Shown here: piece after piece, positions 552 through 22,016 of the stretch | Layout: each line of letters starts with the position of its first letter | Position numbering within the stretch: position 1 is the stretch's first letter | Assembly (NCBI RefSeq): GCF_001428255.1 | Contig: NZ_LMRW01000025.1 | Span: 1-64,000, forward strand | Direction: 5' to 3' | DNA: 64,000 nucleotides | Source: Agromyces sp. Soil535 | GTDB lineage: Bacteria > Actinomycetota > Actinomycetes > Actinomycetales > Microbacteriaceae | Translations under genes and position numbers: made by a program | The notes under the pieces: model-generated | What the model saw: the letters and a program-made list of their open reading frames with translations, nothing else | Told to the model about the DNA's origin: nothing | The model's database searches: none

Positions 552-1736
552 ATGTCGGAAACAGAACTGACGGGCGACAACCTTTTCCAGAATCCGTATC
601 CGGTCTACGCGCGACTGCGCGAAGAGGAGCCCGTGGCCTTCTTCGAGGGAACGAGCGAGTACTTCATCACCCGCTTCGAGGACTGCCGGATCGTGGGGTC
701 CACCGATCGGGTCTTCGTCCCGTCGGACAGCCCGAACCGCCCCGAAGCCCGCGTCATGGGGATGCCGAACGTCCTCAGCATGAGCGGCGAGGAGCACGAA
801 CTTCTCCGGCAGGGAATCGACGAGAACCTCACTGTCGAGGCCGTCCGCGGCTATGTCGGAGCGCTGACCCGGCCCGTGGTGGAGCGGTACATCGCCGAGC
901 TCGAGCCGCGCGGCGAGGCCAACCTGACGGCCGACCTGTTCGAGCCGATCTCGGTGCGCTGCATCGGTGATTTCATCGGCCTCGACGAGACGCCCAACGA
1001 GACGCTCGTGGAGTGGTTCCGCTCGATGAGCGCGGGACTTCAGAACGTCAGCGGCGACCCGGAGGTGTACGCACGGCTGGATCGTGCCGTCGCCGACATC
1101 GACGCCCAGCTCGGCGCGCTCTACGAGCGGGTCGTGGAATCGCCCGACCGCACGCTCATGAGCCACGTCGTCCACGGCGGGCTGCCGGCCGGACAGACGC
1201 GAACCCTCGAGTCGATCCTTCCGACGATGAAGGTGATCATCCTGGGCGGCTTGCAGGAGCCCGGCCACGCGGCCGCGAACGCGGCGACCGGTCTCCTCTT
1301 CAACCCGGAGCAGGCGGCCGCTGTCGTGGCGGAGCCCGAGGAGTACGCACTCCGGGCCTTCGACGAGGGCCTGCGTTGGATCGCGCCCATCGGCGTCACC
1401 CCCCGGGTCGCCGCCGAGGACTTCGAGACCGCAGGGGTCACGATTCCCGCCGGTTCGTCGGTCGCGATCGTCATGGCGTCGGCGAACCGCGACCCGGATC
1501 GCTACGATGACCCGGACTCCTTCGACATGAATCGCAAGAAGAAGCCGCACCTGGCCTTCGGCTTCCGCCCGCACTTCTGCTCCGGCCACGCCCTGGCGCG
1601 CGCGATAGGCGAGATCGCGCTGGAGGAGACGTTCCGTCAGCTCGACGGGCTGCGCCTGGATGACAGCCGGCCGATCACGGCGAAGGGCTGGCGATTCCGC
1701 GGGGTTGCGGACCTGCCGGCTCGTTGGGACGCGTAG
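552..1736 (+). CDS. cytochrome P450, class I bacterial type
   Basis: A 394-residue heme monooxygenase, normal size for soluble bacterial P450s. The ExxR pair is at E272/R275 and the heme-ligating Cys is C343 in FGFRPHFCSG. Two motifs depart from the norm. The heme loop has Arg where most P450s have Gly (FGxGxHxC). The I-helix reads GGLQEPGH, with Pro237 in place of the usual oxygen-activating Thr. I chose the ATG at 552, preceded by AGGGCGGAGA, over the in-frame upstream start at 507, which has no ribosome site. The partner reductase (4939) and ferredoxin (6213) are in the same operon, so electron delivery is self-contained. The substrate is inferred to be a methoxylated or alkylated aromatic acid from the neighbouring LigJ/LigK, VAO and aromatic-type ABC genes. 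Confidence 0.93.
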   Translation: MSETELTGDNLFQNPYPVYARLREEEPVAFFEGTSEYFITRFEDCRIVGSTDRVFVPSDSPNRPEARVMGMPNVLSMSGEEHELLRQGIDENLTVEAVRGYVGALTRPVVERYIAELEPRGEANLTADLFEPISVRCIGDFIGLDETPNETLVEWFRSMSAGLQNVSGDPEVYARLDRAVADIDAQLGALYERVVESPDRTLMSHVVHGGLPAGQTRTLESILPTMKVIILGGLQEPGHAAANAATGLLFNPEQAAAVVAEPEEYALRAFDEGLRWIAPIGVTPRVAAEDFETAGVTIPAGSSVAIVMASANRDPDRYDDPDSFDMNRKKKPHLAFGFRPHFCSGHALARAIGEIALEETFRQLDGLRLDDSRPITAKGWRFRGVADLPARWDA

Positions 1737-1740
1737 GCGG

Positions 1741-2799
1741 ATGCCGCACCTGACCATCGACTGCCACGGTCACTTCACGACCGAGCCGGAGGAGCTCCAC
1801 CGCTTCCGGGCTGCGCAGCTCGAGTATGTCCGTGGTGAGTCCGAGACGCGTCCGCATCTCGATGCGATCTCGGACGAGACGCTGCGCGCGATCATCGAAG
1901 CCAACCAGCTGAGGATCCAGCGGGAGCGCGGCTCCGACGTGACGCTGCTGTCGCCGCGAGCGTCGGGGATGGGACATCACGCTCCAGATCAGTCCATCGC
2001 AACGGAGTGGGCGCAGATCTCCAACGACAGCATCCGCCGTATCGTGGATGCCTTTCCCCGGAACTTCGCCGGCGTGTGCCAGCTGCCGCAGGTGGTCGAC
2101 GGCAGCCTCGAACCGGTGATCGAGGAGCTGGAGCGCTGCGTCGAGGCCGGCTTCGTGGGCTGCAACGTCAACCCCGACCCGTCCGGCGGCGGGTGGTCGG
2201 GGCCGAGCATCACCGACCCGTGGTGGGATCCGCTGTGGAGCGCGCTCGCGCGCCTGGATGTCCCGGCGATGCTGCACGTGTCGGCCTCGACGAACCCCGT
2301 GGTGCACACGACCGGCGCGCACTACATCGCCGCGGACGTCGTCGTCTTCATGCAGCTGGTGCAGGGCGACCTGTTCCAGCGCCACCCCGACCTTCGGGTG
2401 ATCATCCCGCACGGCGGAGGAGCGGCTCCGTATCACTGGGGTCGGTATCGCGGACTCGCGACCATGCTCGGCAAGGGGACGCTGGCCGAGCACCTGCTGG
2501 AGAACACGTTCTTCGACACCTGCGTCTACCACCAGTCCGGGATCGACGCACTGTTCGCCGCCGTGCCGGTGGAGAACATCCTGTTCGGCTCCGAACTGCT
2601 CGGAGCGGTGCGGGGGATCGACCCTGAGTCGCGGCACGAGTACGACGACACGAAGCGATACGTCGACGCCCTCGGGCTGGACGATGCGTCGCGGCACGCG
2701 GTGTTCGAGGGCAATGCGCGCCGCGTGTACCCCCGCCTCGACCGACGACTGAACGATCTCAACGCCCGACGGCCCTCACTCATGGAGACCACACGATGA
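1741..2799 (+). CDS. ligJ: 4-oxalomesaconate hydratase, LigJ-like amidohydrolase
   Basis: A 352-residue amidohydrolase-superfamily protein closely resembling LigJ, which hydrates 4-oxalomesaconate to 4-carboxy-4-hydroxy-2-oxoadipate in the protocatechuate/gallate 4,5-cleavage route. Visible family marks are the N-terminal DCHGH metal motif (H9, H11), LSPRASGMGHH, H179 in the MLHVSAS strand, H194 in TGAHYI, PHGGG (H224), and FGSE with Glu285 where most amidohydrolases carry the metal-binding Asp, a LigJ hallmark. The start ATG follows the P450 stop by 4 bp, and its stop overlaps the next start (ATGA). The LigK-like gene two positions downstream supports the assignment. A related hydratase or decarboxylase on a similar tricarboxylate is the main alternative. 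Confidence 0.85.
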   Translation: MPHLTIDCHGHFTTEPEELHRFRAAQLEYVRGESETRPHLDAISDETLRAIIEANQLRIQRERGSDVTLLSPRASGMGHHAPDQSIATEWAQISNDSIRRIVDAFPRNFAGVCQLPQVVDGSLEPVIEELERCVEAGFVGCNVNPDPSGGGWSGPSITDPWWDPLWSALARLDVPAMLHVSASTNPVVHTTGAHYIAADVVVFMQLVQGDLFQRHPDLRVIIPHGGGAAPYHWGRYRGLATMLGKGTLAEHLLENTFFDTCVYHQSGIDALFAAVPVENILFGSELLGAVRGIDPESRHEYDDTKRYVDALGLDDASRHAVFEGNARRVYPRLDRRLNDLNARRPSLMETTR

Positions 2800-3719
2800 C
2801 CGATGTTCTCGCCACGGTGCGACTGGCCGGAGCCGCCCAGGGATTCAACTGGCTGCCCGTCTTCGTCGCCGACGAACAGGGCATCTTCGCCCGTCACGGC
2901 CTGCGTATCGAGTACCTGCGCATGGGGTCGGTGGACAAGGCCACCGCCGCAGTGCGCGAGGGCGAAGCGGATGTCGCGCTCACGCCGCCGGAGGGAGCGA
3001 TCCAGAACGCAGTCGAGGGCGGTGGCCTCCGGCTCATCGCCGCGAACTCGGTGCGTCTGCCGATGTCGCTCGTGGCGACGCCGAAGATCGCCGAGATCGC
3101 GCAGTTGCGCGGGGCCCGCATCGGCACGTCGTCGCTGACCGAGGGGACCGCGATCTACACGCGTTGGATGCTCGAGCGCGACGGGCTCGAGTACCCGAGA
3201 GACTACGAGTTCGTACTCGCGGGAGTCCACACCGCCCGATGGGACGCGCTGCGCTCCGGCGAGATCGACTGCGCGCCGCAGCCGGCGCCGTGGAGCTTCC
3301 TCGCCGAACGCGAGGGCTTCCACCTCATCGGCGAGGTCAACGACGTCATCCCCGAGATCATCTTCGCCGCCGCCGTCGCCGAATCGGGCTGGCTGGATCG
3401 CAACGCCGCAGCGGCGGGTGCACTCGTCGCCGCGCTCGCCGAGGCGCACGCATTCGTGAACGATCCGCGCAACGACGGCGTGAGCGTTCCGATCTATCAG
3501 CGGATCACCACCCCCGACGAGCCCGAGCTCGCGGAGCGCGGCTTCCGCTACACGCGCGACATGGGGATGTGGCCGCGCGGGGCGCGAATCCCTCGAGCCG
3601 CGTTCGAAGCGAGCCTCGACGCGATGGTGGCCTCCGGTCTGCTTTCGAAGGCCGCACGCGAGCCGGCCGACCGGGTCCTCGAGACCCGGTTCGGCAACAA
3701 CACCGACGGGGGACGATGA
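2796..3719 (+). CDS. NMT1/SsuA-type periplasmic-binding-fold protein lacking a signal peptide
   Basis: A 307-residue protein with the type II periplasmic-binding fold of the NMT1/THI5/SsuA group, seen in the N-terminal [19 protein letters not shown] and the [14 protein letters not shown] segments. It begins [12 protein letters not shown] with no hydrophobic leader or lipobox, so it should stay in the cytoplasm. No permease or ATPase of the taurine/nitrate type is beside it; the operon's importer is of the Liv type with its own lipoprotein. Some family members are enzymes (THI5 pyrimidine synthase, 4,5-dihydroxyphthalate decarboxylase). Its place between ligJ and ligK therefore suggests a catalytic step, perhaps isomerisation or decarboxylation, rather than transport. 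That role is inference. Confidence 0.75.
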
Positions 3720-3720
3720 C

Positions 3721-4401
3721 ATGGTCCACGTCGTCACCCGGATCGAACGTACACCGGCGGCGGTCCGCGACGGGTTCGCCGAGCTCGGCGTCGCGACCAC
3801 CCACGAGGCGCAGGGGCGCACGGGACTGCTCGATCCTCGCGTGCAGGCACGGCAGATCGGCACGTCCATCTCGGGCACCGCGCTGACCTGCGAGGTCGCG
3901 CCCGGAGACAACTGGATGCTCCACGTCGCCCTCGAGCAGGCGCAGGAAGGTGACATCCTCGTCGTGAGCCCGACCTCGCCGTGCAGCGACGGATACTTCG
4001 GCGACCTGCTGGCGACCTCGGCGGTGGCTCGCGGCATCCGGGGACTCGTGATCGACGCCGGCGTGCGGGACATCGCCGAGCTGCGGGCACTCCCCTTCCC
4101 CGTCTGGAGCACCTACATCAGCGCGCAGGGAACGGTGAAGGAGACGCTCGGCACGGTTCAGCAGCCGCTCGTATGCGCCGGCGCGTTGATCAACCCGGGC
4201 GACACGATCGTCGCCGACGACGACGGTGTGTGCGTCGTCCCTCTCGCGACGGCGGCCGAGACGCTCGAACGGGCGCGGCGGCGAGCCGCCGACGAGGAGA
4301 CGAAGCGTCAGCGCTACGCAGCGGGAGAGCTCAGCCTCGACGTCAATGCGATGCGTCCGCGTCTGGAGAGGAAGGGGCTCACGTATGGCGATGTTCAGTG
4401 A
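3721..4401 (+). CDS. ligK: 4-carboxy-4-hydroxy-2-oxoadipate aldolase, RraA/LigK family
   Basis: A 226-residue RraA-fold protein of the HMG/CHA aldolase group, which cleaves 4-carboxy-4-hydroxy-2-oxoadipate to pyruvate and oxaloacetate in the cytoplasm. The signature [10 protein letters not shown] carries the Arg-Asp pair that binds the metal-chelated substrate, and [18 protein letters not shown] residues precede it. The start lies 2 bp after the upstream stop, in an operon that already encodes the LigJ-like hydratase producing this substrate. RraA homologues with other roles exist, but the pairing with ligJ makes the aldolase reading the most economical. Confidence 0.83.
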
Positions 4402-4942
4402 CCCCGCGGTCCCGCGCCGAGTGATCACCGGGACCAGGAACGGCCGATCGGTCGTCGTCAGCGACGGCCCGGTGGTCAACGCGCACCACTACGCGTCGCT
4501 GCCAGGGATGATGACCTCGGTCATCTACACGACCGCAGCCTCGCCGACCCTCCCGATAACGGAGGGCGAGACTGCACCAATGCACGTCCACGTGCCGCCG
4601 GCGCAGGGAGGGACGTGCCTGATGATCGTGACCTTCCCGCCGGACTCGATCTTCGAGGCGCCCACCTTCGACCCGGCCGCCGCGGATGCCGAGCAGCGGG
4701 TTTTCATCCCGGGCCTGGCGGAACGGTTCGAGGTCGACGCGCCCGGCATGCACCAGACCGACTCGATCGACTACGACCTCGTGCTCGCCGGTGAGATATG
4801 GCTGGAGCTCGGCGGCGGCGAGACCGTCCACCTGCGTGCCGGGGACGTCGTCGTCCAAGGAGGGGCTCGCCACGCGTGGCGCAACAGGGGCGACCTCGTC
4901 GCGACCATGGCATTCGTCCTGATCGGAGGTGGAGCCGGATGA
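4385..4942 (+). CDS. single-domain cupin protein
   Basis: A 185-residue cupin. The first cupin motif is weak (around [11 protein letters not shown]). The second is seen in the [14 protein letters not shown]...[20 protein letters not shown] segment, where Gly and His residues suit a metal site. The ATG at 4385 overlaps the end of ligK by 17 bp and is preceded by GAGGAAGG inside that gene; an ATG at 4391 is possible. Its stop overlaps the next start. The function is not defined: it could be a small dioxygenase, isomerase or decarboxylase acting in the aromatic pathway, or a sensor. No classical ring-cleavage dioxygenase is present, so it is the best local candidate for an unassigned oxidative step. 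Confidence 0.75.
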
Positions 4943-6186
4943 GCGCCACGAACGCAGCCACGCGGTACGACGCGCTGATCATCGGGGCCGGACACGCAGG
5001 CGCACAGGCGGCGATCTCGCTGCGCCAGGTCGGATTCGCAGGCACCATCGGGTTGATCGGCGATGAGCCGGTTGCCCCCTACGAGCGCCCGGCGCTGTCG
5101 AAGGAGTACCTCGCGGGAGACAAATCCTTCGATCAGCTGCTCATCCGTCCGGACGAGTTCTGGACCGAGAACAGCGTGGAGCTCGTCTCCGGCGAGCGAG
5201 CCGTCGGCGTCGATCCGTCCGCGAAGACCGTCACCTTCGAAAGCGGCGCGATCGTCGGGTACGGATCCCTCGTGTGGGCGACCGGCGGTGTGCCGCGACG
5301 GATCCCCGTCCCCGGCGGCGACCTCGAGGGAGTCCTCGCGATCCGCAGCAAGGCCGACTGCGACCGGCTGATCGAGGCCCTGCCGTCGATCCGGAATGTC
5401 GTCGTCATCGGAGGCGGGTTCATCGGGCTCGAGTCGGCCGCCGTCCTGCGAGCGCGCGGCGCGACGGTCACGGTGGTGGAGGCGCTGGACCGAGTGCTCG
5501 CCCGGGTCACGGCCGAGCCGGTCTCGCGCTTCTTCGAGAACGAGCATCGGGCGCACGGCGTCGAGCTGTTGTTGGGCGTCGGGATCGATTCGATCGAGGG
5601 CGACGACGCCAGCGTCACGGGAGTGCGTCTCAGCGATGGACGGGTTCTCCCCGCCGATCGGGTCATCGTCGGGATCGGCATCGTGCCCGCCATCGAGCCT
5701 CTCATCGCCGCCGGTGCCGAGGTGACCCCCCACGCGACGGGCGTCCTCATCGACGAACTGTGCCGCACGTCGCTCGCGGACGTGTACTGCGTGGGCGACT
5801 GCTCGGTGCTGCGGAACGGGCCGGGGATGCGTATCGAGTCCCGGCAGAATGCACACGAGCTCGCCACGACGGCCGCCAAGGCGATCACCGGGATCACCGA
5901 CCCGCTCGTGCTCGTCCCGTGGTTCTGGTCGCACCAGTACGACCTCCGGCTGCAGACGATCGGGCTCAACGTCGGCTACGACCAGACGGTGCTTCGCGGA
6001 ACACCCGAGGAGAGGAGCTTCTCGCTCATCTACCTCAAGGAGGGCGAGGTCATCGCGCTCGACTGCATCAACGCGACGAAGGACTACGTCCAGGGGCGCC
6101 GATTGGTCGAGCGCCGTGCACGAGTCGAACCGAATGTCCTCGCCGACACCGATACAGCACTGAAAGACATCGCCGCGGCCCACTGA
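4939..6186 (+). CDS. FAD-dependent ferredoxin reductase of the P450 system
   Basis: A 415-residue NAD(P)H:ferredoxin reductase of the putidaredoxin-reductase/rubredoxin-reductase type. It has the N-terminal FAD Rossmann motif IIGAGHAGAQAA, the second nucleotide motif VIGGGFIGLESAA, the TxxxxxxYxVGDC-like segment with VGDC, and a C-terminal reductase domain. The ATG at 4939 overlaps the cupin stop (ATGA), so translation is coupled. Together with the ferredoxin starting 26 bp downstream it should pass electrons from NADH to the P450 encoded first in the operon. Confidence 0.92.
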   Translation: MSATNAATRYDALIIGAGHAGAQAAISLRQVGFAGTIGLIGDEPVAPYERPALSKEYLAGDKSFDQLLIRPDEFWTENSVELVSGERAVGVDPSAKTVTFESGAIVGYGSLVWATGGVPRRIPVPGGDLEGVLAIRSKADCDRLIEALPSIRNVVVIGGGFIGLESAAVLRARGATVTVVEALDRVLARVTAEPVSRFFENEHRAHGVELLLGVGIDSIEGDDASVTGVRLSDGRVLPADRVIVGIGIVPAIEPLIAAGAEVTPHATGVLIDELCRTSLADVYCVGDCSVLRNGPGMRIESRQNAHELATTAAKAITGITDPLVLVPWFWSHQYDLRLQTIGLNVGYDQTVLRGTPEERSFSLIYLKEGEVIALDCINATKDYVQGRRLVERRARVEPNVLADTDTALKDIAAAH

Positions 6187-6212
6187 CCGCGCGAAGAACG
6201 AACGGAAGAACG

Positions 6213-6530
6213 ATGAAGTTCACAGTCACCACGCGAGAGGGAGAGGCCCGCGACGTCGAGGCGCGCGACGGTCTGTCCCTGATGCAGAACATCCGCAACT
6301 CCGGGATCGAGGAGCTGCATGCGATCTGCGGTGGCTCGCTCTCGTGCGCGACCTGCCACGTGTACGTCGAGCGCGTACCCGCCGGCGTGGCGCTGCCCGA
6401 GAAGTCCCGTGACGAGCGGGATCTGCTCGAGGCATCCGATTTTCTCGAGGACAACTCGAGACTGTCGTGCCAGCTCACCTGCCGACCGGAGCTCGACGGT
6501 CTCCGCGTCACCATCGCGCCCGAAGACTAG
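6213..6530 (+). CDS. [2Fe-2S] ferredoxin, putidaredoxin type
   Basis: A 105-residue adrenodoxin/putidaredoxin-type ferredoxin. The cluster cysteines are visible as CGGSLSCATC (C-x5-C-x2-C) with a fourth Cys in LSCQLTC near residue 89. The ATG is preceded by GGAAGAAC. It lies directly after the reductase gene and, with it, forms the electron chain for the P450. Confidence 0.93.
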   Translation: MKFTVTTREGEARDVEARDGLSLMQNIRNSGIEELHAICGGSLSCATCHVYVERVPAGVALPEKSRDERDLLEASDFLEDNSRLSCQLTCRPELDGLRVTIAPED

Positions 6531-6550
6531 ACCGCCTCGAAAGGGAAGCC

Positions 6551-7681
6551 ATGACACAGATGATGCGCGCCGCGCGACTCCACGCCGTCGGTGAGCCGAT
6601 GGTGATCGACGAGGTCCCGCGGCCCACGGCGTCCGGCACCGACGTCATCGTCGGGGTGAAGGGGTGCGGGATGGTGCCGAACCTCGCGAACGTCCTCGCG
6701 AACTGGGAGACCTGGTATCCGCACATGCCGCTGCCTCCCCGCCCGGCGATCTTCGGGCTCGACCCGGTCGGCGTGGTGCGGGAGGTCGGCGAGCAGGTCG
6801 TGAACGTCCGCGTCGGAGACCGCGTCTACGTCAACCCCGGCCGGTCGTGCGGCGCCTGCCACGAGTGCGCCTCCGGGGTCCCGCAGCAGTGCGACTACTG
6901 GACGCTCGGCGGGTACTTCGGCTACAACGAGCGGAGCGTCGACATGCAGCTGCGCTACCCGTACGGGGGCTTCTGCGAGTACATGCTGGCGCCCCAGACC
7001 GCGATCGTCCCGCTGCCCGAGAACCTCGAGTTCCGCCAGGCGACCCGGATGGGCTACCTCGGCACAGCGTACGCCGCGGTGAAGAAGCTCGGGCCGCTCG
7101 CGGGCAAGACGATCATCGTCAACGGCGCGACCGGAACCCTCGGCGTCGGCGTGACGATGCTCGCCCTCGCGATGGGCGCCGCGCGGGTCTTCGCCGTCGC
7201 GCGCGGCGTCCGGCTCCTCGAGCGACTCCGCGCCCTCGCCCCCGAGCGGATCCACGTCTTCTCGAACGTGGACGGAGGCACGGCGGCGTGGGTCCGCTCG
7301 CTGACCGACGCGCGCGGCGCCGACGCCATGATCGACACGCTCGGTGCCGTCGCCTCGCTCGAGTCGATGCGGGACGCCATGTGCGGCGTTCGCCGGGGCG
7401 GACGCATCGTCAACATCGGCGGCACGGCGGGTGAGCTCGGCGTCGATGTGAAGTGGTGGATGGACGAGCAGATGGAGCTCATCGGTTCCGTGTGGTTCAC
7501 CTCGGCCGAGGCCATCGAACTGTCGCGGATGATCGGCTCCGGCGCCGTCGACATGTCGGTCCTGGAACCCAGGAGCTGGCCGTTCGAGCAGATCAACGAC
7601 GCCATCTCCGGGGTCACCAGCGGCGACGGCGGGTTCACGAGCTACGTCGTGGAGATCGACGCGGAGAGCCGGCGATCATGA
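6551..7681 (+). CDS. zinc-type alcohol dehydrogenase (MDR family)
   Basis: A 376-residue medium-chain dehydrogenase. The structural zinc lobe C-x2-C-x2-C-x7-C is intact (CGACHECASGVPQQC), and the NAD(P) Rossmann motif NGATGTLGVG is clear. At the catalytic site the first Cys is present (KGCGM), but the usual GHE is GLD, so the second zinc ligand His is replaced by Leu. The ATG is preceded by AAGGGAAGCC, and the stop overlaps the next start. In context it may oxidise a hydroxylated side chain or an aromatic alcohol made by the P450 or flavoprotein. The missing His makes a classical zinc mechanism doubtful. Confidence 0.85.
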   Translation: MTQMMRAARLHAVGEPMVIDEVPRPTASGTDVIVGVKGCGMVPNLANVLANWETWYPHMPLPPRPAIFGLDPVGVVREVGEQVVNVRVGDRVYVNPGRSCGACHECASGVPQQCDYWTLGGYFGYNERSVDMQLRYPYGGFCEYMLAPQTAIVPLPENLEFRQATRMGYLGTAYAAVKKLGPLAGKTIIVNGATGTLGVGVTMLALAMGAARVFAVARGVRLLERLRALAPERIHVFSNVDGGTAAWVRSLTDARGADAMIDTLGAVASLESMRDAMCGVRRGGRIVNIGGTAGELGVDVKWWMDEQMELIGSVWFTSAEAIELSRMIGSGAVDMSVLEPRSWPFEQINDAISGVTSGDGGFTSYVVEIDAESRRS

Positions 7682-9282: not shown

Positions 9283-10094
9283 GCCTCGACGAGATGGCGC
9301 CACCGGAGACGGAAGCTCCGGCGGTGCTCCGGGTGGACGAACTCGCCGTGGAGTTCCGGGGGGTCAAGGCCCTGCAGGGCGTCTCGTTCACGATTCCCAG
9401 GGGCGGCATCTCCTCGGTGATCGGCCCCAACGGAGCGGGCAAGACCACGCTGTTCAACTGCATCAGCGGGGTGGCCAAGCACCAGGGCACCGTCGAGCTC
9501 GACGGTCGTGACCTGAGCCGGCTGCGAGCCGACCGCCGGGCGACGCTCGGCATCGCGCGCACCTTCCAGACTCCGCTGCTCATCGCCGAGCTCTCGCCGA
9601 TGGAGAACGTGCTCCTCGGTGCGCACGCCGGCATCCGCGGCGGCGTCGTGGGACTGATCGTGCGCCGCCCGGCCGTGCGCGCCGATGAGCGCGCCGCGCG
9701 GGCACGCGCTGCCGAGCTCATGGAGGTTCTCGGACTGGACCCGGACGACACCCGCCGCGCGGGAAGCCTGCCGCACGGCGATCGGCGGCGGGTCGAGATC
9801 GCACGCGCGCTCATCTCGGATCCGAAGCTTCTGCTGCTGGACGAGCCTGCGGCGGGGCTGGGTGCCGACGAGACCGACCAGCTCCTCCTGGACATCCAAC
9901 AGCACGCCCAGGCGACGGGCATGACCTGCATCCTCGTCGAACACGACGTGGGGCTCGTCATGCGCGTGTCTCGTCACGTCGTGGTGCTGGACGCCGGCCG
10001 GCTCCTCGTCGCGGGCGACCCCCGCGAAGTGGCCGCCGATCCCCGCGTGATCGCCGCATATCTGGGGGACGACTGGTCGGAGGACCGGCAATGA
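9279..10094 (+). CDS. livG: ABC transporter ATPase, LivG type
   Basis: A 271-residue ATPase of the HAAT (branched-chain amino acid/aromatic acid) import family, with Walker A GPNGAGKTT, a degenerate signature LPHGDRRR in place of LSGGQ, Walker B LLLLDEPAAGL and the H-loop EHDV. GTG start at 9279 inside the GTGA overlap with the flavoprotein gene. It pairs with LivF (10091) and the permeases that follow. The catabolic context suggests the importer brings in the aromatic substrate rather than leucine. Confidence 0.92.
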   Translation: MSLDEMAPPETEAPAVLRVDELAVEFRGVKALQGVSFTIPRGGISSVIGPNGAGKTTLFNCISGVAKHQGTVELDGRDLSRLRADRRATLGIARTFQTPLLIAELSPMENVLLGAHAGIRGGVVGLIVRRPAVRADERAARARAAELMEVLGLDPDDTRRAGSLPHGDRRRVEIARALISDPKLLLLDEPAAGLGADETDQLLLDIQQHAQATGMTCILVEHDVGLVMRVSRHVVVLDAGRLLVAGDPREVAADPRVIAAYLGDDWSEDRQ

Positions 10095-10849
10095 CAGGAA
10101 CACTTCTTCGCATCGAGGGGCTCACCGCGCGGTACGGCACCGTGCAGGTGCTCCACGGCGTGGACCTCGAGATCGGCTCCGATGAGATCGTCGCGCTGCT
10201 CGGACCGAACGGCGCGGGCAAGACCACGCTGCTGCGTGCGCTCTCGCGGGTCGTGTCCAGTCGAGGCCGGATGGTCTTCGACGGCACGGACATCTCGTCA
10301 TGGAGCGGCGCTCGGACCGCGACGTCGGGCGTCGGCCACGTGCCGGAGGGTCGAGGCACGTTCGTCGACCTGACCGTGGACGAGAACCTCCGGCTGGGTG
10401 CACTGGCACGTCCGCGCGAGCTGAAGTCCACCGCCGGCGCGGACCTCGACATGGTGTACGAGACATTCCCCGTCCTCCAGGACATGCGTCGGCGGACGGC
10501 GGGACTGCTCTCGGGCGGACAGCAGCAGATGCTCGCCGTCGGCCGGGCCCTGATGGCTCGGCCGAGGCTCCTGCTCATCGACGAGCCTTCGCTCGGACTC
10601 GCGCCGATCGTCACCCGTCAGCTGTTCGACGTCCTCGCGCAGATCCGCAGGCGGTGGTCGGTATCGCTGCTGATCGCGGAGCAGAACGCGCGCCTGTCGC
10701 TGGAGATCGCCGATCGTGCGGTCGTCCTCGCGAAGGGCCAGGTCGCAGTCAGCGGCTCGGCGGAGGAGCTGGGCTACGGCGACGCGGTGCGCCGTGCGTA
10801 TCTCGGCGTCGCCAACGACGAAGAAGGCGGAAAGGGGGCCGGTCGATGA
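10091..10849 (+). CDS. livF: ABC transporter ATPase, LivF type
   Basis: A 252-residue second ATPase of the HAAT importer. Walker A is GPNGAGKTT, the signature LLSGGQQQM is canonical, and Walker B LLLIDEPSLGLAP is typical of LivF. ATG inside an ATGA overlap with livG; its stop overlaps livH. It works as a heterodimer with the LivG-type subunit. Confidence 0.93.
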   Translation: MTGTLLRIEGLTARYGTVQVLHGVDLEIGSDEIVALLGPNGAGKTTLLRALSRVVSSRGRMVFDGTDISSWSGARTATSGVGHVPEGRGTFVDLTVDENLRLGALARPRELKSTAGADLDMVYETFPVLQDMRRRTAGLLSGGQQQMLAVGRALMARPRLLLIDEPSLGLAPIVTRQLFDVLAQIRRRWSVSLLIAEQNARLSLEIADRAVVLAKGQVAVSGSAEELGYGDAVRRAYLGVANDEEGGKGAGR

Positions 10850-11727
10850 CCGAGTTGCTGCAGCAGACGCTCGACGGCCTCAGCGCAGGGCTGATCTACG
10901 GGATCCTGGCACTCGCGCTGAGCGTCGTCTTCCAGGGCACGGGGATGCTCAACTTCGCGCAGGGCGAGATGGCGACGCTGTCCGCGTTCGTCACGCTGGT
11001 CTTCCTTCAGTTCGGGATGCCGTTCTGGGCGGTGCTTCCGATCGTGATCGTCCTCTCCGCACTCGGTGGGGCCCTCATCGAGCGCACGGTCGTACGACCG
11101 CTGGAGCGGTCCGGTGAGCTGCCTCTGCTCACCCTGGGTGTGGCGCTGCTGCTCGGGATCAACGCGATGATGGCGATCATCTGGGGCACCAACTCGAGAC
11201 CGTTCCCCAGCCCGTTCGGGCAGGGAGTGGTGACGTCCCTCGGCCTGCGGATGACCTATCAGCAGCTCGGTTCGCTGATCACGCTGCTCGCTGTGCTGAC
11301 CGTGACGATCCTGGTGTTCAACAGGACGTCGATCGGACTTCGCCTTCGCGCCGTGGCGCAGAACCCGGACTCCGCGACGCTGCTGGGTCAGCACCGGGGG
11401 AAGTGGCTGATGATCGGCTGGGGGATCGCGGCGGCCGTCGGCGCGTTCGCCGCGCTGGTGGCGGCGCCCGTGCTGACGCTCTCCCCGGGGATGATGACCT
11501 TCCCCCTGCTGCTGGCGCTCGCTGCGGCGACGCTGGGAGGTCTCACCAGCAGGGTCGGTGCGGTCGTGGGAGGCCTGATCGTCGGTGTGTCCAACAGCCT
11601 CGCCGGCCGCTACATCCCGGGACTGGACGGCGACCTCGCCATCGTCGTCCCGTTCGTGATCACCGCGATCGTCGTGGTGATCAAACCCGCCGGCATCTTC
11701 GGCAAGGCAAGGACGGTGCGCGTATGA
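10846..11727 (+). CDS. livH: ABC transporter permease, LivH type
   Basis: A 293-residue inner-membrane permease with the LivH opening GLSAGLIYGILALAL and about eight hydrophobic segments. The conserved GNARRRG-like loop is seen as LRAVAQNPDSATLLG. The start overlaps livF (ATGA), and its stop overlaps livM. Part of the five-component importer at 9279-14066. Confidence 0.93.
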   Translation: MTELLQQTLDGLSAGLIYGILALALSVVFQGTGMLNFAQGEMATLSAFVTLVFLQFGMPFWAVLPIVIVLSALGGALIERTVVRPLERSGELPLLTLGVALLLGINAMMAIIWGTNSRPFPSPFGQGVVTSLGLRMTYQQLGSLITLLAVLTVTILVFNRTSIGLRLRAVAQNPDSATLLGQHRGKWLMIGWGIAAAVGAFAALVAAPVLTLSPGMMTFPLLLALAAATLGGLTSRVGAVVGGLIVGVSNSLAGRYIPGLDGDLAIVVPFVITAIVVVIKPAGIFGKARTVRV

Positions 11728-12758
11728 GACATGTCAGCAGACTGATCCCTCGCCTGGGGTGGATCATCGCCTTGGGCATCGGCGTCATCCTTCCCCTCCT
11801 CGTCTCGGACTTCGACCTGCTGGATCTCAGCCGGGTCCTGACGCTGGCGATGGCCGTCGCTGGGCTCAACCTCCTGGTGGGACACTCGGGTCAGGTCAGC
11901 GTCGGCCACGGTGCGATCTTCGGACTCGGCGGGTACGCCGCGATGATCCCCGTCGTCAGCTTCGGCTGGCCGTGGTGGGCCGGCGTCCTCCTCGCCGCAG
12001 TGCTGAGCCTCGCGTTCGGCATCCTGCTCGGGATCCCGGCGCTGAAGATGGGTGGCGCCAACCTCGGCCTGCTCACGATCGCGGTGGCCGTCGTCTTCCC
12101 GCTGCTGCTCATCCGCTTCCAGCCGCTCACTGGGGGGACGTTCGGGATGTTCCTGCCCAGCCCGGCGATCTCGCTGCCCGATTCGGGGTTCACGTCCCGC
12201 CAGCTCGAGTTCTGGGTGTGCCTGTTGGCGCTCGCAGTGGTGTTCGTCGCCCTGCGCAACCTCGTCCACGGTCGGCTCGGCCGGGCGCTGGCGGCGGTGC
12301 GGACAAGTTCGCTCCTCGCAGCCGCCAACGGCATCGCCGTGAACCGCGTGAAGCTGATCGCGTTCGCGGTGAGCTCGACCGTGGCCGGCGTCGCCGGCGC
12401 GTTGTACGCCCTGGTGGTCTCGATCGCGGTGCCCGACAGCTACGTCTTCACCTTCTCGATCGCCCTCCTCGCCGCGAGCGTGATCGGGGGCAGCCGGAGC
12501 TGGGCTGGCGCCATCATCGGAGCCGCGATCATCGTCTACCTCCCGACCCTCGCCGAGGCGTTCGTCGGGGGGCAGGCAGCGGGCAACTGGTCGCAGTTCG
12601 TCTACGCGGCCGGCCTCGCGCTGTGCCTCATCGTCGCTCCCTCCGGCATCGCCGGCGCAGTGACGAGCCTGCTGGGACGTGCCTTCGCGTACGCCCCCAT
12701 GAGACGTGCGGTCGTCGAACGATCGACGGATATGAGAACGACATCCACCGCACCCTGA
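11724..12758 (+). CDS. livM: ABC transporter permease, LivM type
   Basis: A 344-residue permease with the LivM features GLNLLVGHSGQVSVGHGAIFGLGGYAA and about ten membrane spans. ATG at 11724 within an ATGA overlap with livH. It forms the transmembrane channel with LivH. The C-terminal about 25 residues are hydrophilic. Confidence 0.93.
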   Translation: MRHVSRLIPRLGWIIALGIGVILPLLVSDFDLLDLSRVLTLAMAVAGLNLLVGHSGQVSVGHGAIFGLGGYAAMIPVVSFGWPWWAGVLLAAVLSLAFGILLGIPALKMGGANLGLLTIAVAVVFPLLLIRFQPLTGGTFGMFLPSPAISLPDSGFTSRQLEFWVCLLALAVVFVALRNLVHGRLGRALAAVRTSSLLAAANGIAVNRVKLIAFAVSSTVAGVAGALYALVVSIAVPDSYVFTFSIALLAASVIGGSRSWAGAIIGAAIIVYLPTLAEAFVGGQAAGNWSQFVYAAGLALCLIVAPSGIAGAVTSLLGRAFAYAPMRRAVVERSTDMRTTSTAP

Positions 12759-12806
12759 GCTTCCTCTCGCGGAAGCCATCATCCGAATCACACGAAAGGC
12801 ACTTCA

Positions 12807-14066
12807 ATGAAGAAGCACGCAGCAGCTGCGGTCGCATTGGCGGCGACCATGGCGATCCTCCTCGCGGGATGCACTGGGCGAGGCGAGCCGGCCCAGGGGG
12901 CGTCGGAGGAGACCGGCGACATCGTCATTCGCGCCAGCTACCCGCTCAGCGGGCCGCTCGCGTCGGCTGGGCTCTCGGCGGCGGGCGTAACGGCCTACTT
13001 CGACGCGGTCAACGCGGCGGGAGGCATCGACGGGCGCCAGATCGACTTCGAGGCCGTCGACGACGCGTTCGATCCGGCGCGCCAGGTGTCGAACAACCAG
13101 CAGTTCGTCGAGCAGGACGACGCGATCATCGTCATCAACTTCGGCGGCATCTCGGTTGCCGCACGGCCGCCGCTCAACAACGCCGGCGTGGCCCAGATCG
13201 TCCAGGGCGGCGAGACGGAGCTGAGTGACACCGAGGCGTTCCCCTTCTCCCGCGCGTACGTGCCCGACATCGCCTGGGAGGGCGAGCTGCAGGGGCGCTA
13301 CATCACGGAGACGTTCCCCGACGCCAACGTCGGATTCGTCGGGTTCAACAACGCCCTCGCCGACAGCCAGCTCAACGGCCTGGAAGCCGGCGGCATCACG
13401 CCGAGCACCGTCATCAAGCTTCCCCCCGGCCAGGCGGACGTCGCCTCGCAGGTGACGGAGCTGCAGGCGGCGGGAGTGGACGTGCTCGTGGTCACGCAGG
13501 GTCCGCCGACCATCGGCGCGCTCCTGTCGTACATGGGTGAGATCGGCTACCACCCCACCCTGTTCATCGGCAGCCCCTATGCGGACTTCGCGAGCACGGT
13601 GATCCCCGCCGGTGCGGACAACGTGACGGGCGCACTGTCGTATCAGTGGTTCAAGGACCCGCAGAACCCCGCCGTGGAAAGCGACGAGGCCATCGTCCAG
13701 TTCACGGAGGACATGGCCGAGTACTCGCCGGACGGCGACTCGACGCAGACCTTCACCCTCACGGGGTACGGACTTGCTTCGGCGATCGTCTCCGCGCTCA
13801 GCGAGGCGGATGAGATCACGAGTGAGGGCTTCCTGGAGGCGTGGGACACTGTGTCCGACGTCGAGAACCCGATGCTCATCGAGGGAGCGAGCCTGAACGG
13901 CGGCCCGGGCGGGAGGCTGGTGTACCAGTACCCGCCTGCACACGTTCGACGGAACGAGCTGGATCCCCGACGGCGAGATCGTCAACGTCGTGGACGACGG
14001 CATCGTCGAGTAGCGCGGAGGCGCGCTCGGGCAGGACATCGGTCGTCCTGCCCGGTCGCGCACTAA
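12807..14066 (+). CDS. livK: HAAT substrate-binding lipoprotein with frameshifted C-terminus
   Basis: A secreted lipoprotein (lipobox LLAGC within a 25-residue leader) of the LivK/peripla_BP_6 family that should capture the imported aromatic or amino acid. The family similarity is normal until YQYPP near 13934. After that the frame reads an Arg-rich tail to 14066. The +1 frame from 13936 instead gives LHTFDGTSWIPDGEIV and ends in DDGIVE at TAG 14011-14013, a sensible ending for this family. One surplus base near 13935 explains this, either sequencing error or a real mutation. The intact protein would have about 401 residues. Ribosome site GAAAGG before the ATG. Confidence 0.85.
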   Translation: MKKHAAAAVALAATMAILLAGCTGRGEPAQGASEETGDIVIRASYPLSGPLASAGLSAAGVTAYFDAVNAAGGIDGRQIDFEAVDDAFDPARQVSNNQQFVEQDDAIIVINFGGISVAARPPLNNAGVAQIVQGGETELSDTEAFPFSRAYVPDIAWEGELQGRYITETFPDANVGFVGFNNALADSQLNGLEAGGITPSTVIKLPPGQADVASQVTELQAAGVDVLVVTQGPPTIGALLSYMGEIGYHPTLFIGSPYADFASTVIPAGADNVTGALSYQWFKDPQNPAVESDEAIVQFTEDMAEYSPDGDSTQTFTLTGYGLASAIVSALSEADEITSEGFLEAWDTVSDVENPMLIEGASLNGGPGGRLVYQYPPAHVRRNELDPRRRDRQRRGRRHRRVARRRARAGHRSSCPVAH

Positions 14067-14111
14067 CGTAGATTGCGCCCGCGACCAACGGGTGCGCGAG
14101 GAAGGTGGAAC

Positions 14112-14723
14112 GTGGCACGACTGACACGCGAACAGAGCAGAGCGCTCACACGTGAGAAGCTGCTCACGTCCGCGGGCGATGTCGTCGCGAGGGAGGGGTA
14201 CGACGGTGCGTCGGTGGAGCGGATCGCGGACGAGGCCGGATTCTCCAAGGGAGCGTTCTACTCGAACTTCGCGTCGAAGGAGGACATCCTGCTCCACCTT
14301 CTCGAAGGCAACGCCGGCAACGATGTCCGCGACCTGACGGAGCTGCTTCAGGACCTGACGGATCCCGATCTGGTGATCGACGCGATCGTGCGATGGAGCG
14401 ATGCGAGGGCGGCCGAGCAGAAGTGGGGGATCATCGCGATCGAGTTCCTCCGCCGGGCGAAAGCGGATGGGACCCTCACCGACCGAGAACGGAGTCTGTT
14501 CGTTTTGCAGTGGGAGTCCATCGGGCGGCTCCTCATCGCCAAGCTCTTCCCCGACGCGGATCCGCCGGTCAGCCCGATCGACTTGGGGGGGATCGTGCTC
14601 GATCTCACCTACGGAGGCATCTCCAGCTTCCTGGAGGTCAACACCACAGGGGGAATGATCCGTCAGGTGCTCGAGGCCCTTCGCATCGCCGCCGCCGCGG
14701 ACGTCGCTCAGGAGGAGACGTGA
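14112..14723 (+). CDS. TetR/AcrR family regulator
   Basis: A 203-residue regulator. The N-terminal HTH is visible in DGASVERIADEAGFSKGAFYSNFASKED, followed by a C-terminal ligand domain. I chose GTG 14112, preceded by GAGGAAGG, over an upstream in-frame start at 14073. The stop overlaps the GTG of the DUF2218 relic. Being last in the aromatic operon it is the likely local repressor, probably acting at the region before the P450 gene. The ligand is unknown. Confidence 0.88.
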   Translation: MARLTREQSRALTREKLLTSAGDVVAREGYDGASVERIADEAGFSKGAFYSNFASKEDILLHLLEGNAGNDVRDLTELLQDLTDPDLVIDAIVRWSDARAAEQKWGIIAIEFLRRAKADGTLTDRERSLFVLQWESIGRLLIAKLFPDADPPVSPIDLGGIVLDLTYGGISSFLEVNTTGGMIRQVLEALRIAAAADVAQEET

Positions 14724-15071: not shown

Positions 15072-15107
15072 CACGTGGGTCGGCGAGAGTGCGATGCTCG
15101 CGGACCG

Positions 15108-15920
15108 TCAGGATCTCGAGAGCGCGATCAGCTCGCTCCGGGAACTCGCACCCGCCTTGCGCAGGAGGTTCGAGACGTGGAACTTGACGGTGTTCTCGCT
15201 CACGCCGAGCTCGGTCGCGATGTCGCGATTCCTGCGACCGACGCCGACCAGCCGCAGCACCTCCTGCTCGCGTTCGCTGAGGGGAGCTCGCAGGATCCGC
15301 GGTTCCGGCCCGGTGGGGGGATCGAGTGGAATCCTGATCCGAAGATCGGATCCCCATCCGGTAGTCGAGGAGACGCCGAGCTCGCCTCCCAACGCGGTCA
15401 CCCGCTCGGCGATGGGCCGCAGTGAGTCGTCGTGGGCGGTCAGCTCGCCCCGGCCATCGTCGCGAACCGCGATGAGAAGGTTCAGTCCGTCGCAATCCCA
15501 CTGAATGCGGACGCGTCTGGTCGCCCCTTCGTCGACCAGGGCGAGCACCGCGCTCCTGACGATCGCGCGGGCTGCGTGGGCGACCTCCCCGGGAAGTGCG
15601 CGGCCAGTGGCGGGCGGTTCGACGAACTGCACGTCCAGGTCGCTGTGCCGCACCAGCGGCCTCAAGTCGTTGCGCAAGCGTGCGAACGCGCCGGTCACCG
15701 GTTCGATCATGCTGCTTCGCAGCTGGTCGGTCTGCTCGCGGAGGCTGACCAGTGCTCCGGCGGCGACATCGATCGCCATGGTGCGGGCAGCACGATCGGT
15801 CAGTTTCGCCGATCGCAGGGTGGCCAGGATCGACTCGAGCGTGAGCGCGTGATGGTCGGCCTGGTCGGCGACGATGCGCGCATGCTCGGCCAGGGTGTGA
15901 CGGGACGTCGGACCATCCAT
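15108..15920 (-). CDS. regulator fusing a histidine-kinase-like ATPase domain to a LuxR HTH
   Basis: A 270-residue protein. Residues about 1-110 resemble a dimerisation/phosphotransfer-like helical part. Residues about 120-205 look like a HATPase domain with a DDGRG G1 box and a GWGSDLRIRIPL end, but without an obvious N-box Asn. The C-terminal 65 residues are a LuxR/GerE HTH (LSEREQEVLRLVGVGRRNRDIA, then ENTVKFHVSNLLRKAG). There is no receiver domain. It therefore joins parts normally found on separate NarL-type kinases and regulators. It is divergent from hxlBA, which makes control of formaldehyde fixation a reasonable guess. Signal unknown. Confidence 0.82.
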   Translation of the reverse strand: MDGPTSRHTLAEHARIVADQADHHALTLESILATLRSAKLTDRAARTMAIDVAAGALVSLREQTDQLRSSMIEPVTGAFARLRNDLRPLVRHSDLDVQFVEPPATGRALPGEVAHAARAIVRSAVLALVDEGATRRVRIQWDCDGLNLLIAVRDDGRGELTAHDDSLRPIAERVTALGGELGVSSTTGWGSDLRIRIPLDPPTGPEPRILRAPLSEREQEVLRLVGVGRRNRDIATELGVSENTVKFHVSNLLRKAGASSRSELIALSRS

Positions 15921-15933
15921 ACAGCCAACCTTG

Positions 15934-15984
15934 CCCTACCCGATCCTCGACTTCCACTCCGCATTACCGCCGGAACAGGTAGGG
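15934..15984. promoter_or_regulatory. inverted repeat between the LuxR-type regulator and hxlB
   Basis: CCCTACC at 15934-15940 and GGTAGGG at 15978-15984 form a perfect 7-bp inverted repeat 37 bp apart in the 119-bp divergent gap. It may be a regulator site or a pair of half-sites; no protein can be assigned from sequence. Confidence 0.3.
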
Positions 15985-16039
15985 AAAACCATGCCAGAGG
16001 ATAGGCCGTCCTGTCGGAATCGCCGACCACGATGGGCTC

Positions 16040-16618
16040 ATGACTCTCACGATCACGTCGCCGACGGGAGCGATGTCTCTCATCGCGCAGGAGCTGCTAC
16101 TAGCATCGGAGCGAACCGCTGTCCGGCAGGCTGACGAACTGAGCAACCTGGCCGACCTCGCGCTGCAAGCCGAGCGGACGTTCGTGTTCGGTGCGGGCCG
16201 CTCGGGTCTCGCCCTCAAGATGACGGCGATGCGACTGATGCACCTCGGCTTGGACGTCCACGTCGTCGGGGAAGTGACTGCACCGGCCATCTCGAACGGG
16301 GACCTGCTGCTGACGGCCAGCGGCTCGGGGACGACCATGAGCGTGCTGCGGGCCGCGCAGCTGGCCTCCGCTGCCGGCGCTTCGGTTGGAGTGATCACGA
16401 CTGACCCGCACTCTCCCCTTGCCACACTGGCGACCGTCAGCGTCCACGTCCTCGCCGCGGAGAAGCGCGACATTTCGGACGCGGCCTCCCGCCAGTACGC
16501 CGGGAGCCTGTTCGAGCAGTGCGTCGTCGTCATCGGCGACGCACTCTTCCACACCCTTTGGCAGCGATCCGGCGTCTCCGCCGACGAGCTGTGGGAGCGC
16601 CACGCGAATCTCGAATGA
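16040..16618 (+). CDS. hxlB: 6-phospho-3-hexuloisomerase
   Basis: A 192-residue SIS-domain protein of the PHI family (usual length about 180-200) that converts hexulose 6-phosphate to fructose 6-phosphate in the ribulose monophosphate cycle. FGAGRSGLALKMTAMRLMHLG and TASGSGTTMSVL are the SIS phosphosugar-binding motifs. It precedes hxlA by 61 bp. In this context the pair probably detoxifies and assimilates formaldehyde released by demethylation. Confidence 0.92.
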   Translation: MTLTITSPTGAMSLIAQELLLASERTAVRQADELSNLADLALQAERTFVFGAGRSGLALKMTAMRLMHLGLDVHVVGEVTAPAISNGDLLLTASGSGTTMSVLRAAQLASAAGASVGVITTDPHSPLATLATVSVHVLAAEKRDISDAASRQYAGSLFEQCVVVIGDALFHTLWQRSGVSADELWERHANLE

Positions 16619-16679
16619 CCGCCCCATCCGTTCACCCCCGCGCTTACGCGCACAACACCCCACAAAGAAAGGGACACGT

Positions 16680-17303
16680 ATGAAGCTTCAGTTCGCCATG
16701 GACACCCTTACCACCGATGCCGCCCTGGAACTGGCCGCTGCGGCCGCGCCGCACGTGGACATCCTCGAGCTGGGCACTCCGCTCATCAAGAGCGCCGGGC
16801 TGTCGGCGATCACGGCGATCAAGCGCGCCCACCCCGACAAAGTGATCCTCGCCGACCTCAAGACGATGGATGCCGGCGAGCTCGAGGCCGACATCGCGTT
16901 CCGTGCCGGTGCGGATCTCGTGACGGTTCTCGGAGTGGCCGACGACAGCACCATCGCCGGTGCGGTCAAGGCGGCGCAGGCTCACGACAAGGGCGTCGTC
17001 GTGGATCTGATCGGCGTCGAGGACAAGCCGCAGCGGGCGAGGGAAGTCATCGGGTTGGGAGCCGTCTTCGTCGAGATGCACGCGGGTCTGGACGAGCAGG
17101 CGAAGGAGGGCTACTCGATCAAGTCCCTCCTCGATGATGGCGAGGCGTCGGGTGTGCCATTCTCGGTGGCCGGCGGTGTGAACACCTCGTCGATCGTCGC
17201 AGTAAACGCATCCGGAGCCCAGATCGCGGTCGCGGGCAGTGCGATCTACAGCGCTCGCGACGTCGGTGCCGCAGCCGCTGAGTTGCGCACCGCGATCGCC
17301 TGA
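16680..17303 (+). CDS. hxlA: 3-hexulose-6-phosphate synthase
   Basis: A 207-residue (beta/alpha)8 enzyme of the OMP-decarboxylase suprafamily that condenses formaldehyde with ribulose 5-phosphate. Family marks are MKLQFAMDTLTT at the start, DILELGTPLIKSAG, the metal-site ADLKTMDAGELEA, and the phosphate-binding VAGGVN and AGSAIYSA. ATG 16680 is preceded by AAAGAAAGGG. It forms a two-gene operon with hxlB. Confidence 0.94.
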   Translation: MKLQFAMDTLTTDAALELAAAAAPHVDILELGTPLIKSAGLSAITAIKRAHPDKVILADLKTMDAGELEADIAFRAGADLVTVLGVADDSTIAGAVKAAQAHDKGVVVDLIGVEDKPQRAREVIGLGAVFVEMHAGLDEQAKEGYSIKSLLDDGEASGVPFSVAGGVNTSSIVAVNASGAQIAVAGSAIYSARDVGAAAAELRTAIA

Positions 17304-22000: not shown

Positions 22001-22016
22001 CCTCAAGGAGGAGGAC

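Follow-up and report, generated by a model that had tools for sequence, protein, structure and literature searches.

Catabolism of syringyl lignin in bacteria is poorly mapped beyond sphingomonads and pseudomonads. In Sphingobium SYK-6 and Pseudomonas NGC7, syringate catabolism involves DesA/LigM or VanAB, DesB/GalA/MgaAB, and LigUJK or GalDBC. The NGC7 pathway is reported to run through 4-oxalomesaconate (OMA), KCH and 4-carboxy-4-hydroxy-2-oxoadipate (CHA) and to be paired with a formaldehyde dehydrogenase gene, LigJ and LigK working downstream of ring opening to OMA (PMC12314914). Among cytochrome P450s, GcoAB, AgcAB and SyoA are described as O-demethylating guaiacols or syringol; GcoA and SyoA, both CYP255A, prefer guaiacol and syringol, and AgcA prefers 4-substituted guaiacols (PMC13101465). 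In the non-methylotroph Burkholderia cepacia TM1, the activity of 3-hexulose-6-phosphate synthase (HPS) and 6-phospho-3-hexuloisomerase (PHI), handling formaldehyde from aromatic O-demethylation, is reported to rise on vanillate (PMC8879981). Here we describe a locus at the start of a 64,000-nucleotide stretch of Agromyces sp. Soil535 (the window, which begins at base 1 of contig NZ_LMRW01000025.1; genome 4.83 Mb, 99.99% complete), where an operon encoding a P450 system, LigJ and LigK is followed by hxlB-hxlA. We consider it probable that this acquired operon, under the control of a TetR-family regulator, would degrade a methoxylated aromatic by way of P450 O-demethylation, OMA and LigJ/LigK, with the formaldehyde passing to HPS/PHI.

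The core of the operon, which recurs elsewhere as a cassette, is like the SYK-6 and NGC7 systems in its lower pathway via OMA, KCH and CHA, and a DesA/LigM-type gene lies near rhizobial copies (the scanned one being locus L006). It differs from them in carrying a P450 in place of DesA/VanAB, and a cupin plus an NMT1-fold protein instead of a recognised LigB-type dioxygenase and PrpF tautomerase; moreover, the window holds HPS/PHI where NGC7 has a formaldehyde dehydrogenase. In contrast to GcoAB, the operon carries a ring-fission lower pathway. No description of this gene set was found in the titles or abstract starts of open-licence PMC papers, a weak indication of novelty.

The operon and its conserved core

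The plus-strand gene run at 552-14723 extends from the P450 gene to the TetR gene in the packed order given below, and the sequence seen 5' of the P450 gene ends at contig base 1. The intergenic gaps from the P450 gene to livM are only -11 to +26 bases (with VAO counted from the ATG at 7678), followed by 48 bases before the gene of the substrate-binding protein and 45 before the GTG of the TetR gene at 14112. A minus-strand LuxR-type gene (15108-15920) stands between the operon and hxlB-hxlA. The P450 system, the flavoprotein of the vanillyl-alcohol oxidase (VAO) type, LigJ/LigK, the HAAT importer, the TetR and hxlB-hxlA named in the initial annotation are all present with scores far above chance, and the distance of less than 2 kb that it gave holds as well, the TetR gene ending 1.3 kb before hxlB.

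441..476, plus strand: promoter/operator, TTGACA + 16 bases + ATACTCTCGGGTAT (463-476), putative TetR operator overlapping the expected -10 region
552..1736, plus strand: cytochrome P450, GcoA/SyoA/AgcA-related, putative aryl-O-demethylase (Pfam 48 bits; PDB 8u09 282 bits)
1741..2799, plus strand: LigJ, 4-oxalomesaconate (KCH) hydratase, amidohydrolase_2 (PF04909 183 bits; PDB 6dwv 431 bits)
2796..3719, plus strand: NMT1/THI5-like protein of a periplasmic-binding fold family (PF09084 55 bits)
3721..4401, plus strand: LigK, 4-carboxy-4-hydroxy-2-oxoadipate aldolase (TIGR02798 311.2 bits, cut-off 304.5)
4391..4942, plus strand: cupin, 183 aa, alternative ATG at 4385 (PF07883 27.1 bits on the longer open reading frame 4226-4942, cut-off 27.2)
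4939..6186, plus strand: FAD ferredoxin-NAD(+) reductase (PF07992 209 bits, PF14759 110 bits)
6213..6530, plus strand: [2Fe-2S] ferredoxin (from the translation, C-x5-C-x2-C pattern; position conserved)
6551..7681, plus strand: Zn-dependent protein of the alcohol dehydrogenase (ADH) family, MDR type (PF08240 71 bits)
7678..9282, plus strand: flavoprotein oxidase of the VAO/eugenol oxidase (EUGO) type (PDB 9gov 359 bits)
9279..10094, plus strand: HAAT importer ATPase, LivG-like (PF00005 103 bits, PF12399)
10091..10849, plus strand: HAAT importer ATPase, LivF-like (PF00005 93 bits)
10846..11727, plus strand: HAAT importer permease, LivH-like (PF02653 106 bits)
11724..12758, plus strand: HAAT importer permease, LivM-like (PF02653 115 bits)
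12807..14066, plus strand: HAAT substrate-binding lipoprotein (PF13458 132 bits)
14112..14723, plus strand: TetR-family regulator, GTG start, TTG at 14073 also possible (PF00440 47 bits)
15108..15920, minus strand: LuxR/GerE-type regulator, divergent from hxlBA (PF00196 64 bits)
16040..16618, plus strand: hxlB, PHI (TIGR03127 220.9 bits, cut-off 160)
16680..17303, plus strand: hxlA, HPS (TIGR03128 241.3 bits, cut-off 200)

A single scan of genome contigs with an alignment of the P450 yielded 31 loci, through which 21 genomes were reached; a gene was counted as present in a locus if the alignment covered no less than 80% of the query, and many of the Rhizobium loci are near-copies. LigJ is present in 25 loci, the NMT1/THI5-like protein in 26, LigK in 22, the cupin in 20, the Zn-ADH in 15 (59-79% identical), VAO in two, and PHI and HPS in one each. 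The order P450-LigJ-NMT1-LigK-cupin-reductase-ferredoxin is conserved in Nonomuraea (L001), Phyllobacterium YR531 (L002), Acrocarpospora (L003) and Arthrobacter bambusae (L004), as well as in Streptomyces (L005), Microvirga (L008) and most Rhizobium loci; in the genomes of L018 and L019, the stretch from LigK to the ferredoxin forms a second unit close by. In the four actinobacteria the core is directly followed by the ADH gene, which several proteobacteria have at another place in the cluster, and the VAO gene is divergent from the P450 gene in L004 and L005. Because this core recurs in actinobacteria and rhizobia, the genes from P450 to ferredoxin, with or without ADH, are best described from their distribution as a mobile, horizontally acquired cassette that crosses phyla. 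In the P450 tree, Phyllobacterium YR531 is placed with the actinobacteria and not with the other rhizobia (fork support 91/88, under the star threshold of the tool), and the window branch is long; the LigJ tree did not resolve the position of the window. The P450 group occurs in one of 398 sampled genomes of the family, the window's own (next best 42%), and in one of 60 genomes of the genus (next best 44%), and the same gene order, which the initial annotation had suggested seeking in other Microbacteriaceae, was not found there. Neither the mobile core, with the NMT1-fold protein, the cupin and the Zn-ADH as part of it, nor the absent ring-cleavage enzyme and the divergent LuxR gene had been foreseen.

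The nearest solved structures to the P450 are 8u09 (282 bits) and the GcoA entries (about 263 bits; the group ranges from 282 to 257 bits), and with 385 residues aligned in each case the identity is 40.5% to 8u09 and 39.2% to a chain of GcoA; the customary threshold of a P450 family is 40%. We take 8u09 to be the syringol demethylase SyoA, its PDB listing saying 'Cytochrome P450' only. Besides this identity of about 40%, measured for these two, the window P450 has a QEPGH stretch in common with GcoA, SyoA and AgcA, and O-demethylation would be its putative role too, but it falls into a distinct group that has its own close relatives. GcoA presumably works with a single GcoB-type reductase, whereas the window P450 comes with the ferredoxin, whose C-x5-C-x2-C pattern we take to be adrenodoxin/putidaredoxin-like, and the FAD reductase; from their sequences, the three are assigned to a three-component system. 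Relatives 67-77% identical occur in actinobacteria and rhizobia, those of sphingomonads are 61-64% identical, and one 97% identical P450 (P0001) points to at least one further close copy in public data. Matches were also found in 191 plasmid records, 119 of them from Agrobacterium, which fall into two groups: 15 rhizobial or agrobacterial records at 60-80% identity carry this P450 type (Rhizobium, Sinorhizobium and one Agrobacterium), and 176 are below 60%. Given this split, a VirH2/PinF2 label taken from the source name of P0053 was dropped; it is not shown rather than disproved, the VirH2 sequence itself not being among those compared.

The P450 gene of the window is preceded by an exact TTGACA box at a spacing of 16. 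Across the 31 loci, an ATAC-N5/6-GTAT palindrome with a TTGACA box (at most one mismatch, at most 32 bases upstream) precedes the P450 gene in 25, of which 20 match the window in having an exact box at a spacing of exactly 16. The six loci without the site are L021 and L022, which have sites about 490 bases up, past a DoxX-like gene, and L028-L031, whose loci are without LigJ. If the pattern is tightened to ATACY-N(2-6)-RGTAT, a site lies within 400 bases in 21 of 31 loci, as compared with 18 of 6200 base-shuffled windows; these locus counts are not independent because so many Rhizobium loci are near-copies. In the whole Agromyces genome, ATACY-N4-RGTAT occurs at two sites (control, one), and the second, at C1:447862, does not exceed the control; read by eye, it sits behind a DoxX-like gene in the vicinity of a different TetR gene. 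A look for palindromes proper to hxlB found none upstream of it. The TetR has homologues 69-73% identical in L001, L003 and L004 and weaker ones with other copies, and since such homologues accompany the cassette copies, it is likely the repressor of the operon, acting through the putative operator.

In several of the proteobacterial copies, a small DoxX-family membrane protein accompanies ADH or TetR (L021:9569-9922, a Pfam match; L002:6903-7385; L022), and another DoxX-type gene adjoins TetR in L001; none was recognised in the window island.

Proposed pathway and the ring-opening step

LigJ scores 431 bits against 4-oxalomesaconate hydratase (6dwv), the best score to any other kind of enzyme being 158 bits, for a meta-cleavage compound hydrolase, and LigK, as well as HPS and PHI, passes the cut-off of its equivalog family. 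A lower pathway via OMA favours substrates of the syringyl/gallate type over guaiacyl ones. The sequence itself shows which genes these are, how tightly they are ordered, and that the core and the promoter/operator are conserved; the substrate, the order of the steps, TetR binding and the roles of the cupin, the NMT1-fold protein, VAO and ADH are our inference, as follows. Initially, the HAAT importer would take up a methoxylated aromatic, most likely of the syringyl type. The P450, with its ferredoxin and reductase, would strip ring O-methyl groups as formaldehyde, leaving a gallate-type or 3-O-methylgallate ring. Afterwards, a dioxygenase, most likely the cupin of the operon, would open the ring towards OMA, and the NMT1-fold protein would probably provide the isomerase or tautomerase step. 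LigJ would then hydrate the tautomerised product, and LigK would split it to pyruvate and oxaloacetate, while VAO and ADH may oxidise a side chain or an alcohol. Finally, HPS and PHI from the adjoining, separately regulated hxlBA would fix the formaldehyde to fructose 6-phosphate.

The VAO protein is of the same sequence family as VAO/EUGO and 4-allylsyringol oxidase, the latter being its nearest solved relative (9gov, 359 bits), followed by entries named 'probable vanillyl-alcohol oxidase' at 340 bits or less, one set of which is called eugenol oxidase. In the alignments, the protein keeps the His and Asp that presumably serve covalent FAD attachment and catalysis. However, of the Tyr-Tyr-Arg set that presumably forms the phenolate pocket of VAO/EUGO, both Tyr are replaced: against two aligned chains, the window has GHGG for GYGG and DSRPH for EYRTH, with Arg kept. 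Where the solved relatives have two Tyr, the window has His and Ser, L004 has the same His together with Cys, and L005 the same His together with Ser.

No match to the LigB-type family PF02900 was found at E 0.001 in the Agromyces genome or in six others of the 21 (L002, L017, L018, L019, L026 and L029), and the full gene set is present in five of these (L002, L017, L018, L019 and L026). Dioxygenases of the TIGR03211 type (E 1e-15) were not found in four of 17 genomes (L002, L012, L018 and L026), and a PrpF-type tautomerase had no match in seven of 17. The genomes of L002, L018 and L026 thus have neither PF02900 nor TIGR03211 matches, and all three hold P450, LigJ, NMT1, LigK, cupin, reductase and ferredoxin. 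Because the genomes other than that of Agromyces are mostly drafts of unstated completeness and PF00903 proteins of many kinds are present (17-22 matches each in L002, L017 and L026), this absence is suggestive and no proof that these carriers lack an established ring-cleavage enzyme to form the OMA that LigJ/LigK need.

The cupin is the best candidate for the ring-cleaving dioxygenase, since its fold is the only one in the core, besides the P450, that could plausibly activate O2. Of the 21 genomes, 19 contain it by a threshold of E 1e-20 (48-72% identity at the best place outside the Agromyces genome), including all 17 whose retrieved locus has LigJ, which was looked for in the loci; of the four other genomes, those of L028 and L029 have none. 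His121, Asp127 and His161 are invariant across 25 aligned sequences and could make up a 2-His-1-carboxylate metal site. The strong matches of the cupin in the PDB (3es1 and 8x0u) are named just as cupins, and a quercetinase appears at E 0.08. An anti-correlation between cupin and LigB in sphingomonads was considered and dropped, as the genome-wide search found the cupin just outside the retrieved loci. The NMT1/THI5-like protein has no evident signal peptide (by eye) and only weak matches among solved structures; it is possibly the isomerase or tautomerase. The broader proposal is of a self-contained, phylum-crossing syringyl route without any known gallate-pathway dioxygenase or tautomerase. 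In it, the cupin would cleave gallate or 3-O-methylgallate as a type III extradiol dioxygenase of a new kind and the NMT1-fold protein would be a new OMA tautomerase/isomerase, with formaldehyde passed to the host's own module (HPS/PHI in some actinobacteria, glutathione-dependent in rhizobia). We put this forward tentatively and regard it as considerably less probable than the pathway as a whole.

Several observations weigh against the pathway proposed here. On the side of uptake and oxidation, the gene of the substrate-binding protein seems frameshifted at its 3' end, the frame changing near 13912-13931 relative to the L001 homologue (either a sequencing error or a real mutation), and the substrate of VAO is uncertain because its phenolate-pocket residues are changed. 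At the ring-opening step, the cupin is also present in the genomes of L023 and L024, whose loci have no LigJ. PF02900 matches occur in 14 of the 21 genomes at 33 places, and LigB-type proteins over cut-off in at least two sphingomonad carriers of the P450 (L055 and L057 among the places scanned). The Agromyces genome itself has five TIGR03211-type matches and one PrpF protein outside the cluster. At the formaldehyde step, over-cut-off HPS is present in two of the 21 genomes only, those of Agromyces and Arthrobacter, the latter with two copies. Within the genus, eight of 60 genomes have over-cut-off HPS, and seven of these are without the P450 type of the window. In addition, the P450-operator pattern was not found upstream of hxlB, and hxlBA thus lies outside the operator here.

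Some of these points support the strongest alternative, in which the pathway is the same but ring opening falls to an enzyme whose gene lies outside the operon, a catechol-2,3-dioxygenase/VOC protein here and LigB in sphingomonads, the cupin serving in isomerisation or as an accessory; we rate it as a serious contender, if somewhat short of an even chance. Other cupins do act as isomerases. One of the five TIGR03211-type matches adjoins PrpF on the same contig, and an HpaD-type protein over cut-off is encoded on contig C23. With the five TIGR03211-type matches and the PrpF protein at hand, Agromyces need not use the cupin as its ring-cleaver. The PF02900 places are diverse: of the 33, 12 were retrieved and eight scanned (L053, L056 and L058 being among the unscanned), and apart from the two LigB-type ones, L047 is of the MhpB type over cut-off, L048 is nearest to MhpB, L049 is MhpB-like (by eye), L050 and L051 are nearest to DOPA dioxygenase, L052 is a class III extradiol enzyme over cut-off, and L054 is nearest to a putative dioxygenase. 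An enzyme encoded elsewhere is, however, harder to reconcile with the full-set genomes of L002, L018 and L026 that are without PF02900 and TIGR03211 matches, with the operator occurring at one site only besides the P450 promoter in the Agromyces genome, and with the retrieved cassette stretches, outside which all the detected dioxygenase genes lie.

Two further regions of this genome touch on the subject. At C25:243723-245773, on the contig of the window, a PrpF-fold gene adjoins a catechol-2,3-dioxygenase-type gene (300 bits, cut-off 320), possibly as part of another extradiol pathway. At C23:14000-32000 (L108), a gene for an O-demethylase of the DesA/LigM type (539 bits against DesA, cut-off 800) lies near the gene of the HpaD-type dioxygenase and an HpaI-like aldolase gene (by eye).

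hxlBA and its probable role in formaldehyde fixation

In A. bambusae (L004), hxlB-hxlA stands behind the operon ADH gene and points the same way, the gaps measuring 82 and 55 bases, and zwf over cut-off lies about 0.5 kb beyond hxlA; homologous clusters thus do not always lack hxlAB, as the initial annotation had allowed they might. The second HPS copy of Arthrobacter (L115) has no aromatic genes nearby (by eye). The rhizobial copies have formaldehyde-related neighbours of other types, namely PurU in L006 and, both over cut-off, S-(hydroxymethyl)glutathione dehydrogenase in L010 and S-formylglutathione hydrolase in L019. The DesA/LigM-type O-demethylase near L006 scores 505 bits against DesA (cut-off 800) and 448 against LigM (cut-off 580), and is a member of the family that receives no equivalog call.

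The LuxR-hxlB-hxlA trio is kept in all seven other congeners with over-cut-off HPS, the LuxR being 70-75% identical. In two of them (L111/L113 and L112), the trio adjoins a HAAT importer and a P450; that of L111 scores 622 bits against a solved CYP199, and that of L112 shares 94% identity with it. In the first congener there are PobA- and PcaG-type genes as well (L113), and in a third congener (L098) pcaDC-pcaIJ adjoins hxlBA. No P450 was recognised beside hxlBA in five of the seven, and within about 10 kb around hxlBA, read by eye, the other four congeners have no aromatic catabolism genes. Because the trio is conserved in all seven and two of its copies lie beside a CYP199-type P450, we infer that hxlBA forms a module in its own right, which on more than one occasion was combined with P450 types of aryl-O-demethylating function. 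The CYP199-type P450, a reductase-like gene and the HAAT importer at L111, L112 and L113 may constitute a para-methoxybenzoate route.

It might be argued instead that hxlBA is an unrelated neighbour, a general module of formaldehyde detoxification. Its own divergent LuxR-type regulator within a trio so widely kept, the frequency of HPS in the family (108 of 398 genomes over cut-off) and the missing P450-operator site upstream would fit such a view. We nevertheless hold it unlikely, as the Arthrobacter hxlBA directly follows ADH in operon direction, three of the seven congener modules lie beside aromatic catabolism genes, two of them with a CYP199-type P450, and formaldehyde genes of other types flank some rhizobial copies. 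The coupling of operon and formaldehyde fixation drawn by the initial annotation therefore stands in part: the acquired operon of the P450 O-demethylase type, hxlBA in L004 and the rhizobial formaldehyde genes speak for it, but hxlBA in the window is a separate unit with its own LuxR and no shared operator. Taken together, the comparisons support the link as genuine though separately regulated. Given the report on B. cepacia TM1, the principle of HPS/PHI acting with aromatic O-demethylation is already known. What was observed there is enzyme activity, whereas the window presents a gene-cluster coupling to a P450 system, recurring with the CYP199 type in congeners.

Further 3' of hxlA are genes for a PLP-dependent enzyme (17534-18484), a beta-lactamase-family protein (18779-19948), a LacI regulator (20840-21958) and a double-ABC-domain ATPase (21942-23555), which have no evident connection to the island.

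Substrate class and implications

LigJ and LigK serve the protocatechuate 4,5 pathway also. Guaiacyl (vanillate/ferulate) catabolism, in which the P450 would yield protocatechuate for 4,5-opening and LigC/LigI-like steps to OMA, could draw on this and on the preference of GcoA/AgcA relatives for guaiacols (as described in PMC13101465), but is improbable, the least likely of the alternatives, given that the Agromyces genome has no LigB-family enzyme, that no LigC/LigI-like gene was recognised among the operon genes (a genome-wide search for either was not made) and that the closest solved VAO is 4-allylsyringol oxidase.

In summary, if the syringyl route proposed for this operon is true, it adds a P450-based pathway in actinobacteria and nitrogen-fixing rhizobia, and it would explain the occurrence of OMA-pathway enzymes in genomes without LigB-type dioxygenases, with the cupin and NMT1-fold families as ready candidates for the missing steps. 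Toxic formaldehyde is an acknowledged obstacle to lignin upgrading, and the locus may represent a natural design pairing aryl-O-demethylation with formaldehyde fixation.

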